NCBI RefSeq assembly: GCF_000355675.1
Contig: NC_020888.1
Coordinates: 186,001-250,000, forward strand
DNA from: Thalassolituus oleivorans MIL-1
Lineage (GTDB): Bacteria > Pseudomonadota > Gammaproteobacteria > Pseudomonadales > Oceanobacteraceae
Length of the DNA: 64,000 bases
Direction: 5' to 3'
The notes under the pieces were generated by a model, which did no database searches, was not told the DNA's origin, and saw only the letters and a program-made list of their open reading frames with translations. Within the stretch, counting starts at the first letter, position 1; each line of letters begins with the position of its first letter. The position numbers were made by a program, and so were the translations under genes. Shown one piece after another: positions 8,059 to 24,915 of the stretch.

Positions 8059-8286
8059 ATGATCCGCTGCCACCTAGCCCGATTAATGGGTGAGAGAAAA
8101 ATGCGCATTAGCGACGTGATGCGAGAAACCGGCCTAAGCCGCACAACAGTCACGCTACTTTACAAAGAAACCGCGCTCAAGGTGGACTTAGAGGCGCTCG
8201 ATAAGCTGTGTGATTTGTTTGATTGTGAAATCCAAGATCTATTACAAAAATCGCCAGCAGAAACCGAATTTAATGAGAACAAGTAA
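8059..8286 (+). CDS. mad1: MADS regulator: small Cro/CI-type HTH protein
   Basis: A 75-residue protein that is almost only a helix-turn-helix: MRISDVMRETGLSRTTVTLLYKE, then LEALDKLCDLFDCEIQDLL. This is the short XRE type related to YozG. GGAGAG precedes ATG 8059 at a good distance. It opens the eight-gene operon and its stop shares one base with the methyltransferase start (TAATG). A regulator as first gene agrees with mad1 of the methylation-associated defense system; the symbol follows gene order and recalled literature. It probably represses its own operon, perhaps so that methylation is established first. That role is inferred. Confidence 0.8.
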   Translation: MIRCHLARLMGERKMRISDVMRETGLSRTTVTLLYKETALKVDLEALDKLCDLFDCEIQDLLQKSPAETEFNENK

Positions 8287-22400: not shown

Positions 22401-24915
22401 TTGGGTATTCACTGTGGATAGAAACTTGGGCATTGAATTTTTTGATCACGGTGGTAAAGATGGTCGTCCAGATTATCTGATTGATCACAGCCCTGAAATG
22501 GCTTCTTCAAACACGCACAACTTTGTTATTACTTCGCGTTCTACTACAGAAATAGAAGCATTATTGAGAGGGACCTTAGAACAGCATCAAATTGTTCCTG
22601 ATGTTAATAAGGCGACGAGGGTTTTAGACTCACTTAGAGCGTTGTCAGGCAGGCTTGCACTAAAACTGGCTTCAAATAGCGCTTCAAAGTCGGAAGCCTT
22701 AGGGTTGGCGCTATCCAAACTTTATCTTGAATACCAGGGGGTGTTCAAAGATCAGATCATTGTTCCTTTAGATGCCCACCTAGAGCTATATTCCGAGCTT
22801 CAAAAAGGAGATGGGGAGCTTGGTGCTGACGTTAGCTTTAAAAGAACTGATTTAGCATTGTTCGATTTAGATGCTTCATCACGCACAATTCGTTGTAATT
22901 TAGTCGAAGTTAAGTGTTATTCAGAAGTCGGCGATATGACGAAGTATGAAGGTTTAAAAAAGAGTATTGCTGAGCAAATCTCGGAATCTGAACGTGTTCT
23001 TCAGCGTCATTTTGATTTGACTCGTACAACATCGGATAGGCCTGATCGCTTGGTTAAAACACAAAAGCTCTGTGTCCTTCTTGAACATTACCTTAAACGA
23101 TCTGAACGTTTTGGTTTATTGACTTCTGAGGTTGTTGAGGAGGCGAGATTTTTGCTTCGGACCTTGGAACAGGGATACAAGCTTTCAATTACCCGAAGTG
23201 CAGTTATTTTTGATTTCGGTCAGAATAGTTCCGGCGTTGAAAAAGAAGTTGGTATCGAGTTTCATCGTGTTGGGCGAAACCATATTGACGAATTGCTCTC
23301 CGCTAAAGTGCCTGAGGATAATGAACACAGTGAAGGAACGTTGGATTCACTTGAGCTAACGCTGCCTAAGTTAACTTCGGCCGAATTTTTACATAAAGAG
23401 CGAGATAGAACCGTATCTTGGGCTGAATTAGTATCTCAAGCTGCGATCACTTTACCTGAGCGGCCAGATACTTCGAAAGATGAAACGATTAAAGTACTGC
23501 CTTTTAATGATGATGAGCCAGCTACTGTTTCGCCGTCGATTAATCAGGGCGTTGAAGAAGTAAAACCTGTTGGTAATCCAGCTCCTGCAATAACTAATAC
23601 TGTAGAGCCAGAGCCAGAGCCAGAGCCAGAGCCAGAGCCAGAGCCAGTGCCAGAGCCAGAGCCAGAGTCTGACGAAAATTTGCACATCCCTAACATCACA
23701 ACGGGTAATAAAATTGAGGTCGTTCCCCACGATATTGTTCTTGGTGTCAACGGTGACTCTGCTCAGTTTGGCCTATTGGGAGAGGTCCATGGACGGAAAA
23801 TAGCCTTAGATTTAAACCATACACACACACTAAGTTTATTTGGTGTTCAAGGTGGGGGCAAAAGCTATACATTAGGCTCAGTTGTGGAGATGGCAACTAA
23901 ATCAATTCCATCGATCAATACGCTGCATAAAGAGTTGGCCAGTGTGATATTCCATTACAGTGCTACTCAGGACTATAAACCTGAGTTTACGTCGATGATA
24001 GCCCCAAATGACGATGTTACGCAGTTAGCTAAGCTTAAAGAAGTATATGGTGCGGAGCCAGCTTCCTTAGATGATGTTGTGTTGTTAGCTCCTGAAGACA
24101 AGTTAAACGAACGTCGTGCTGAGTACCCTGGAATTGAGGTACATCCGTTGAAGTTTTGTTCTTCTGAATTGCAAGCTGGGCACTGGAAATTTTTGATGGG
24201 GGCTATCGGCAACCAAGCCGCATATATCCGCCAACTAGGCAATATTATGCGTAAAAATCGAAATAACCTCTCGATCCAAGCGATAAGGGATGGAATACAA
24301 AACTCTAGTCTTTCGGATTCACTTAAAGACCTAGCAGACATGCGTTTGGATTTTGCTGAACAGTACATTGATGACCAATTAAACGTTGGTTCGCTGATTC
24401 GACCAGGCAGAATGATCGTTGTAGATGTTCGAGACGAATTCATCGAAAAAGATGAGGCATTAGGCTTATTTGTGGTGCTTCTGCAAATATTCTCGGAAGC
24501 CAAGTACCAAGGGCAATCTTTTAACAAGCTAATTGTGTTTGATGAATGTCATAAATACATCGATAGTCCAGACCTAGTAAAAGGGCTTGTGGAAACGGTA
24601 CGCGAAATGCGCCACAAGGGCACCAGTGTCATGATTGCCAGCCAAGATCCACCGTCTGTACCGGTGGAACTTATTCAGCTTTCATCACAGATTATTCTGC
24701 ATAAGTTCAACGCTCCGGACTGGTTAAAGCATATTCAAAAAGCCTGTATCGGTTTGAAATCACTAACGCCTGAGAAGCTTGGAGCGTTAAAACCAGGTGA
24801 GGCATATATTTGGTCTAGCAAAGCCAGTGATAACGCATTTGTCAGCGACGCAATGAAGATTCAGTGTCGCCCAAGAGTGACTAAGCACGGTGGGGATACT
24901 TTGACTGCCGTGTAA
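19435..24915 (+). CDS. mad8: MADS large ATPase with nuclease-like motif (DptH-like)
   Basis: 1826 aa. A long N-terminal part without recognised motifs is followed by a PD-(D/E)XK-like signature: D1139, then E1158-V-K1160 in LVEVKCY. Next come an acidic linker with nine Glu-Pro pairs (about 1391-1412) and a HerA/FtsK-type ATPase with Walker A GVQGGGKS (1470-1477) and Walker B FDE (D1703/E1704), ending in TSVMIASQDP and LSSQIILHKF. This is the probable DNA translocase and restriction effector of the system. The layout resembles DptH of phosphorothioate-dependent restriction. The nuclease call rests on the motif alone. Confidence 0.85.
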   Translation: MIKGIQTVIKSDIDGSLISVLVPKFKLLLETRGAGHCMKVSDLETELMYQLSEVVSGAVEYAQVAVLAEKATRNFSVTSTKLVELRNPDEHGQLRQPLLIFVPNELKTSSEDSFGAATFEQIDISDAYWLAFNQVKAESPDPIKRLLDEVYFILQEKAALKLSAYQWLRYALTIKVNGFDPSVAGAALYELGLIPDLELHQDHSMLVRKLVKNRECVQIINRSEKSAIATVYDLQLEGEDFNKRLALFLNDQENLLDSSWRKQLVVDSSNWALTFDKWRFQYEEDATDAVCLTVTEVGLPLIPEDETDPNLQQLIGQQVLTTGQGGLKKFSVTFSVSPKPSEVNGLAKYKAQVFTQQGDFVGLIKVGKATSKSTVTITFNKLTGIEWEEGWHYIRIQAFDENDELLPLVDDKQCPIPWGTSSAEEAGSRINESDLFYVLPAADAEVEPIEGRKVREASLAHAKIKAEFANVIETEKFANAEVMETTWQDSKSKAESIVNVKFKKGSGIQIPVTTYLKDFEQKILANPMAALTWRVEIRNQEASESGADAVDWPIKGVESQFEKFKVARETYFQIIHQDEKELISVAHDHVSSSHEAYLYSSSYLEYLAAVFQETENGHDYSTELAALLRLDSLSIVIWNYDGSYKKAMLLGPTHPLRALWLGGWASLAEAWARQSEKVGKEIAVGTKNSLLEELALTNFPYVLPDSQGQLMVALDSIHPFWSILSSAQEKEPQALIDKIKTAFGIKNDYQQVGKQSSTFLATKVERYLIQHPYVNCLSINVFNAGSAGAVAGMLLALRKKPELKHISFDIRLFVADPYATEVGADLFKLINSGEDSENENQLFHSAENHLQPKLSISLRASSEFEQSPDEFQSHLSMLFDVFPAQELSVVKPQADEQVAPIYGLYQDYCIDYFDENGVVAWDRHTRHGAAKMLFGGQISEAIAKLPKMMSGITASLATGDFSLEQVPVVRLALDSAERALLNQLHEVSDWVFTVDRNLGIEFFDHGGKDGRPDYLIDHSPEMASSNTHNFVITSRSTTEIEALLRGTLEQHQIVPDVNKATRVLDSLRALSGRLALKLASNSASKSEALGLALSKLYLEYQGVFKDQIIVPLDAHLELYSELQKGDGELGADVSFKRTDLALFDLDASSRTIRCNLVEVKCYSEVGDMTKYEGLKKSIAEQISESERVLQRHFDLTRTTSDRPDRLVKTQKLCVLLEHYLKRSERFGLLTSEVVEEARFLLRTLEQGYKLSITRSAVIFDFGQNSSGVEKEVGIEFHRVGRNHIDELLSAKVPEDNEHSEGTLDSLELTLPKLTSAEFLHKERDRTVSWAELVSQAAITLPERPDTSKDETIKVLPFNDDEPATVSPSINQGVEEVKPVGNPAPAITNTVEPEPEPEPEPEPEPVPEPEPESDENLHIPNITTGNKIEVVPHDIVLGVNGDSAQFGLLGEVHGRKIALDLNHTHTLSLFGVQGGGKSYTLGSVVEMATKSIPSINTLHKELASVIFHYSATQDYKPEFTSMIAPNDDVTQLAKLKEVYGAEPASLDDVVLLAPEDKLNERRAEYPGIEVHPLKFCSSELQAGHWKFLMGAIGNQAAYIRQLGNIMRKNRNNLSIQAIRDGIQNSSLSDSLKDLADMRLDFAEQYIDDQLNVGSLIRPGRMIVVDVRDEFIEKDEALGLFVVLLQIFSEAKYQGQSFNKLIVFDECHKYIDSPDLVKGLVETVREMRHKGTSVMIASQDPPSVPVELIQLSSQIILHKFNAPDWLKHIQKACIGLKSLTPEKLGALKPGEAYIWSSKASDNAFVSDAMKIQCRPRVTKHGGDTLTAV
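23605..23667 (+). repeat. GAGCCA hexamer microsatellite inside mad8
   Basis: Seven consecutive GAGCCA units, one GTGCCA and two more GAGCCA encode a Glu-Pro linker between the nuclease-like and ATPase parts. Each unit is six bases, so gain or loss changes linker length without shifting the frame. Such tracts vary between strains by replication slippage. Confidence 0.85.

Follow-up and report, generated by a model that had tools for sequence, protein, structure and literature searches.

A methylation-associated defence system in Thalassolituus oleivorans MIL-1: relatives of the Dnd and Ssp FGH proteins and an optional Mad3-Mad4 cassette

The operon and its regulator

The window analysed here comprises 64,000 nt of Thalassolituus oleivorans MIL-1 (NC_020888.1, positions 186,001-250,000; coordinates are window positions unless a genome position is named), and carries eight plus-strand open reading frames (ORFs) spanning 8059-24915 that resemble the methylation-associated defence system (MADS; Maestri et al. 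2024, Cell Host Microbe). Labels L0xx and L1xx denote operon loci in other genomes, plasmids or contigs used for comparison, and Gxxx the genomes of relatives. An earlier note had described one coupled operon of eight genes, and this layout held: with the chosen starts, neighbouring genes overlapped by at most 4 nt or were separated by at most 9 nt, and none of the eight had an internal stop. Its domain assignments (regulator, N6-adenine methylase, AAA ATPase, small unknown, HsdS, NERD/kinase/AAA protein, unknown, nuclease-like/HerA protein) were borne out by PADLOC and Pfam, the latter giving in gene order HTH_26, N6_Mtase, AAA_21, none, Methylase_S, NERD with kinase (two stretches) and P-loop, none, and weak matches; gene 8 also had weak HerA matches in PADLOC and among PDB sequences. 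As that note had stated, no HsdR, PglZ or DISARM helicase was found for the eight genes among the PADLOC, Pfam and NCBIfam matches listed. Motif I and TNPPF of Mad2 were conserved across 52 sequences.

All seven of Mad2-Mad8 passed the curated NCBIfam cut-offs (Table 1), including genes 4, 7 and 8, whose homology to Mad4, Mad7 and Mad8 the note had singled out as decisive. PADLOC matched mad1-mad8 in operon order, in agreement with the eight-gene count and the numbering 1-2-3-4-5-6-7-8, although its top model was MTase_II for gene 2 (mad2 second) and HEC-01A for gene 3 (mad3 third). Judged from these matches, the operon is a complete and apparently intact MADS, a further example of a known system.

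The weak part of this identification was gene 1, which reached only 20.4 bits against PADLOC mad1 (32 of 60 model positions); L024 and L034, which carry the HTH_17-like Mad1, scored 60.7 and 60.2 bits. Mad1 of L024 is of the HTH_17 type, unlike the HTH_26 of gene 1, and orthology between the two is doubtful; the near relatives L014 and L015 have the same gene 1 as the window. Gene 1 is probably a replaced regulator, and the MADS name stands. A new MADS variant on account of gene 1 was considered and dropped, since the gene preceding mad2 differs between MADS loci. Homology of the operon begins at 7950/7951, and the upstream inverted repeat is identical in L014 and has one change in L015, with unrelated sequence farther upstream. 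A promoter-like match at 7977-8004 was not above chance, and promoter and terminator scans gave results at or below chance.

Table 1. Features of the window, in nucleotide positions unless residues are stated
Feature	Position	Strand	Description
Upstream region with inverted repeat	7950-8058	+	Repeat at 7965-7982 (AACTCAAATAAGTTGAGA), candidate operator of the gene 1 regulator
Gene 1 (Mad1-position regulator)	8059-8286	+	75 aa; HTH_26 (Cro/C1 type), Pfam 1.9e-19
mad2, N6-adenine DNA methyltransferase	8286-10340	+	684 aa; NF047738 MAD2 1030.7 bits, cut-off 720
mad3, ABC-type ATPase	10337-11617	+	426 aa; NF047739 MAD3 542.9 bits, cut-off 420
mad3 swapped hypervariable segment	about 10531-10994	+	Residues 66-220, mosaic
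mad4, Toprim-like protein	11620-12276 (ORF opens 11563)	+	218 aa; NF047734 MAD4 245.8 bits, cut-off 160
mad5, HsdS-like specificity subunit	12273-13652 (ORF opens 12252)	+	459 aa; NF047740 MAD5 424.8 bits, cut-off 400; Methylase_S
mad6, NERD/pseudokinase/kinase/P-loop	13662-17795	+	1377 aa; NF047741 MAD6 754.1 bits, cut-off 460
Mad6 domains	residues		NERD about 1-125, pseudokinase about 190-450, kinase about 500-770, SspF/DndF-like P-loop core about 800-1350
mad7, SspG homologue	17792-19438	+	548 aa; presumed DNA-binding subunit; NF047733 MAD7 625.4 bits, cut-off 410
mad8, DndH/SspH homologue	19435-24915	+	1826 aa; NF047742 MAD8 221.8 bits, cut-off 175
Mad8 domains	residues		PD-(D/E)xK signature about 1137-1161; HerA/FtsK-type ATPase about 1440-1826
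HipA_C proteins (two)	77-973 and 4235-5482		Second directly after a small helix-turn-helix gene
AAA_14/DUF4143 protein	2287-3621	-	PADLOC candidate PDC-S01, 2.9e-120
Decayed-looking defence genes	26413-27724	-	PD-Lambda-2_A 3.1e-36; PD-Lambda-2_B piece, 122/402 model positions; HsdR-type helicase remnant
HsdR-type helicase remnant	26413-26820	-	135 aa; just outside the operon
Tyrosine integrase	28260-29516	-	Beside yicC

Mad6, Mad7 and Mad8 and the Dnd and Ssp proteins

PADLOC matched residues 822-1338 of Mad6 to SspF (3.2e-30), Mad7 to SspG (5e-10) and Mad8 to DndH (3.2e-5). Profiles built from 62 Mad6, 71 Mad7 and 61 Mad8 sequences were then aligned by hhalign with profiles of SspFGH (n = 3 each, L086-L088), DndFGH (n = 2, L100 and L101) and the FGH proteins of NERD-kinase operons (n = 2, L089 and L090, the F protein of L090 being truncated by the contig end). 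With single-pair E-values, the C-terminal half of Mad6 matched SspF at 1.6e-17, DndF at 1.9e-9 and the NERD-kinase F at 1.4e-50; Mad7 matched SspG at 6.5e-10 and the NERD-kinase G at 5.6e-16; and Mad8 matched SspH, DndH and the NERD-kinase H at 2.3e-12, 1.7e-17 and 1.1e-45. The Ssp and Dnd sets were far more distant from Mad6-7-8 than those of L089 and L090. Non-matching pairs, with Mad2, Mad3, Mad5 and the N-terminal half of Mad6 as controls, gave 0.0068 or worse, except that Mad6 half against the NERD-kinase F (8.8e-34), which is expected because both have the same NERD-kinase front. The F, G and H homologues share one operon in F-G-H order, G by way of SspG and not DndG. By these comparisons, SspF/DndF have their homologue in the C-terminal half of Mad6, SspG in Mad7 and SspH/DndH in Mad8.

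At the level of residues, GNAGDGKT, AINEG replacing the Walker B aspartate and a C..C...C insert occur in at least 90% of the 62 Mad6 sequences and fit the DndF hallmarks of Walker B asparagine and Cys insert (PMC10853773); LHITMRDLRS may hold the lid arginine. In the first Mad6 kinase HRN takes the place of the H.D seen in the second, and the two are therefore read as a pseudokinase and a probable kinase. A protein phosphatase 2C gene that overlaps the end of mad8 in one other locus (L011:22118-22783) is a possible partner of this kinase. Conserved over the 61 Mad8 sequences were R.D...E.KC, FDEAHKY and ASQDP; the Mad8 RxD...VEVKC falls opposite RPD...VEVKA of DndH in the alignment, and SspH too can be aligned over the nuclease signature. 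Because of its homology to SspH/DndH, Mad8 is nominated as the nuclease-motor, and it probably cuts invading DNA.

NCBIfam MAD6 covers only residues 1-624 of Mad6, and MAD8 only residues 35-236 of Mad8, and the Dnd/Ssp link may therefore be unobvious from annotation. DndFGH has been described as a DNA nickase and translocase (PMC11662687), and DndF proteins with NERD and inactive plus active kinases are reported in PMC10853773, which calls DndFGH stand-alone, without an inbuilt modification module, and in whose text HsdS, HsdM and MADS do not occur. PglW has the same NERD-kinase architecture according to PMC12839542, in the available part of which MADS is not named. No paper linking MADS to DndFGH was found in the literature searched, which consisted mostly of titles and abstract openings and did not cover the original MADS paper. 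The seven flanking ORFs of L089 and L090 that were scanned with Pfam included recC and a gene for a PEP-utilising enzyme, but none matched a methyltransferase, so a kinase-FGH module without an m6A (N6-methyladenine) partner seems to exist.

The Mad3-Mad4 cassette and exchanged parts

Besides HEC-01A, Mad3 matched AriA in PADLOC (3.9e-23), and it matched the OLD-family structure 6p74 in PDB at 9.8e-6. The AlphaFold model of Mad4 (predicted local distance difference test score, pLDDT, of 87; input of the window plus 25 of 26 locus sequences) had as its top PDB match the OLD C-terminal region 6njv (E 4.2e-4, template modelling score, TM, 0.48/0.50), the sole match below 0.001. MADS is named among ABC ATPase-Toprim systems in PMC12409363. 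The cassette was scored in 76 loci besides the window (72 from a scan of species genomes and 4 from plasmids) by phmmer with the window proteins at an E-value of 1e-5, a call of neither gene also needing a mad2-mad5 spacing below 400 nt. Both genes were present in 28 loci and neither in 33; 15 could not be scored, and one gene alone was never seen. No scar is left at 27 of the 33 cassette-less loci, where the mad5 frame begins at the final sense base of mad2; in the remaining six the mad2-mad5 distance is -30 to 311 nt. Cassette presence needs seven changes on a quick Mad7 tree of 71 rows (six loci with odd Mad7 length omitted), and none of the 26 scored rows from Bacteroidota and Chloroflexota has the cassette; the Bacteroides finegoldii operon without it is still above the NCBI MAD2, 5, 6, 7 and 8 cut-offs. 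Mad3-Mad4 is thus an optional cassette.

On three IMG/VR contigs (L114, L115 and L116) there is a MADS-type operon for which neither mad3 nor mad4 could be found, L114 having two mad2-like genes. Elsewhere in the operon, mad5 and mad6 are set apart by other genes spanning more than 300 nt in 11 loci (10 Bacteroidota, 1 Chloroflexota); eight ORFs from these gaps were scanned, of which three matched Schlafen AlbA_2, four gave single matches to DUF1016/YhcG nuclease, CpXC, WG repeat and PIN, respectively, and one matched nothing.

Window and L014 proteins are 98% identical in Mad2, 97% in Mad6, 98% in Mad7 and 97% in Mad8, and 30% in Mad5, while Mad3 is 92% identical outside and 37% identical inside residues 66-220. 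The alignment indicates that the window Mad3 is a mosaic in which residues ~66-220 were exchanged; a donor of this segment was sought in plasmids and none was found. L014 and L015 are 95% identical in the Mad3 segment, yet 40 and 65% in the two halves of Mad5, so the segment and Mad5 are exchanged independently. We surveyed pairs of operons sharing at least 90% identity in Mad7, 46 in all from 23 operons with usable sequences, and counted a part as deviating where its identity was over 15 points lower than that of the worst stretch in Mad2, Mad6, Mad7 and, if full length, Mad8 (linker 1281-1440 excluded). The worst 155-residue stretch of Mad3 deviated in 23 of the 46 pairs and whole Mad4 in 16 of 46; Mad5 was usable in 24 pairs, and its worst stretch deviated in 21 of them. 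With the linker included the figures were 15/46 for Mad3 and 20/24 for Mad5. The pairs are not independent, all 23 Mad3 cases involving the window, L031, L035 or L037. Mad4 was replaced along with the Mad3 stretch in L035, and pairs such as L024-L025 and L036-L048 showed no Mad3 swap. As aligned, the parts replaced between near-identical operons are Mad3 ~66-220, Mad4 and Mad5, and the hypervariable Mad3 stretch is likely the trigger sensor.

Genomic place, proposed mechanism and related systems

Mad7 was above its cut-off in 1 of 55 genomes in a search of relatives and 1 of 369 in a search of the class, in both cases the window's own genome, as well as in four plasmid records and in no phage record. 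It was found at 72 or more loci among 84,980 species genomes, a lower bound set by the search patterns, L085 being a short piece. Fragmented MADS operons, apparently decayed or badly sequenced, were seen in L053 (Thiohalocapsa) and L083 (Streptomyces). In three of four relatives fetched (G001, G003 and G008) yicC lies ~1.5-2.5 kb from conserved genes that in the own genome end near genome position 184,999, whereas yicC of the own genome starts at 215,878; the fourth (G007) has no such neighbours. The operon is inside a ~31-kb insertion beside yicC, replacing the 1.5-2.5 kb of those three relatives. Guanine-cytosine content per 2-kb bin is 40-48% for 8001-24000 and 46-51% beyond 28 kb. DNA homology with L014 covers 7950-24916, interrupted in mad3 and mad5, and none extends beyond the operon limits in the flanks of L014 (216 nt before, about 430 nt after) or L016. 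Comparing the integrase-yicC gap with the preceding 89 kb for att direct repeats gave just 11-17 nt matches (E 0.6 or worse).

We favour, with moderate confidence, a mechanism in which m6A self-marking by Mad2-Mad5 is joined to a kinase-regulated Mad6-7-8 that restricts unmarked DNA, with Mad3-Mad4 as a second guard. From their families, Mad2 and the HsdS-like Mad5 would place m6A on a motif set by the target-recognition domains of Mad5, marking self DNA. The C-terminal half of Mad6, Mad7 and Mad8 would form a complex like SspFGH/DndFGH, in which Mad7 may contact DNA and Mad8 may travel on it by its HerA-type motor, its PD-(D/E)xK domain cutting or nicking unmarked DNA. The DndF-like part of Mad6 may sense nucleotides or partner proteins, and its probable active kinase, beside the pseudokinase and NERD nuclease, could switch or arm Mad6-7-8. 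Class, optional occurrence and swapping suggest that Mad3-Mad4 forms a second, separable layer of OLD/PARIS type, a trigger-specific guard, in which the ABC ATPase Mad3 would recognise a phage trigger via its hypervariable segment and then release the Toprim-like Mad4.

Several points weigh against this mechanism. In Ssp and Dnd the FGH module goes with phosphorothioation rather than with m6A, and the Ssp, Dnd and NERD-kinase profiles are small (three, two and two sequences). Mad7 gave no match to the two DndG sequences (hhalign 0.46), and its model (pLDDT 86.5; input of the window plus 49 of 66 locus sequences) had no PDB match under E 0.001, leaving a winged-helix fold unconfirmed; DNA binding by Mad7 therefore rests on its SspG homology. 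The second Mad6 kinase has DFN for DFG. Toprim domains usually carry a conserved E and DxD; Mad4 has D at the E position and a single conserved D instead of DxD, and its fold match is modest (TM ~0.5).

An unlikely though not negligible alternative is that Mad8 does not cut, Mad6-7-8 instead sensing and moving on DNA and blocking phage replication, with killing left to the NERD of Mad6 or to Mad4 as an abortive toxin. The NERD and Toprim-like domains are indeed separate candidate nucleases, and such N-terminal domains of DndF and PglW have been read as co-effectors or back-ups (PMC10853773, PMC12839542), but the nuclease signature of Mad8 is conserved over 61 sequences and aligns with DndH, and 33 of the 61 loci that could be scored lack Mad4, which therefore cannot be the general effector. 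We regard it as very improbable that MADS is unrelated and that its Mad6-7-8 is like DndFGH only in having P-loop, helix-turn-helix and nuclease domains of a generic kind: Mad7 lacks a DndG match and weak P-loop cross-matches do occur (Mad3 with DndH, 0.0068), but the matches pair F with F, G with G (SspG) and H with H and keep the gene order, the Ssp/Dnd pairs cover 146-612 columns, regions without a P-loop are included (Mad8 570-1286, Mad7 134-525), and the NERD-kinase FGH operons match at 5.6e-16 to 1.4e-50. It would be equally surprising if this were a modification operon with accessory genes whose methylation is regulatory, with no defence role here; the lack of HsdR in the operon among the matches listed would fit, whereas every part but gene 1 is above the MADS cut-offs, other defence-type genes lie in the same insertion and no gene of the operon is broken.

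The system itself is known and the earlier note named it correctly; beyond naming, the value is in the proposed effector and in a presumed pair of exchangeable specificities. Destruction of phage DNA by MADS is blank in a 2026 review, where its restriction is listed as unknown (PMC12904381, Table 1), and homology to relatives suggests a probable cutter and points to specific testable residues in the Mad8 nuclease and motor and in the Mad6 kinase and DndF core. The same homology hints that DndFGH modules of the kinase type can come with their own modification partner. Whether MADS is a chimera of a NERD-kinase DndFGH effector, its own type I-like m6A mark and a plug-in guard, whose presumed sensor (Mad3 ~66-220) is swapped like HsdS, giving two independently exchangeable specificities for DNA sequence and phage trigger, seems to us evenly balanced.

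Among known systems, OLD/PARIS (AriA-AriB) may resemble the pairing of Mad3, a clear ABC ATPase, with the Toprim-like Mad4, but Mad3-Mad4 is an optional cassette inside a modification-restriction operon and Mad4 departs from the usual Toprim residues. The N-terminal half of Mad6, with NERD and tandem kinases, is like PglW of BREX type 2 (PADLOC PglW 1.7e-50), whereas its C-terminal half is DndF-like and it reaches 163 bits to NCBI PglW against a cut-off of 990. SspFGH/DndFGH share homology and F-G-H order with Mad6-7-8, but the module of the window has an m6A methyltransferase and HsdS as its partners, and its F protein carries NERD and kinases, as in a subset of DndF (PMC10853773). Across the entire own genome dndC (TIGR03183) had no match, sspD and other dnd/ssp genes lying outside the genome-wide search, and an SspG search matched only Mad7 itself (E 1.8e-5; none in 14 control genomes); Mad6-7-8 is therefore filed as a homologous module and not as a Dnd/Ssp system. 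The closest system is MADS as described by Maestri et al. (2024), with the same gene order and with Mad2-Mad8 of the window above the NCBI cut-offs, from which the window operon differs in its HTH_26 gene 1, compared with the HTH_17 type of L024, and in its mosaic Mad3.

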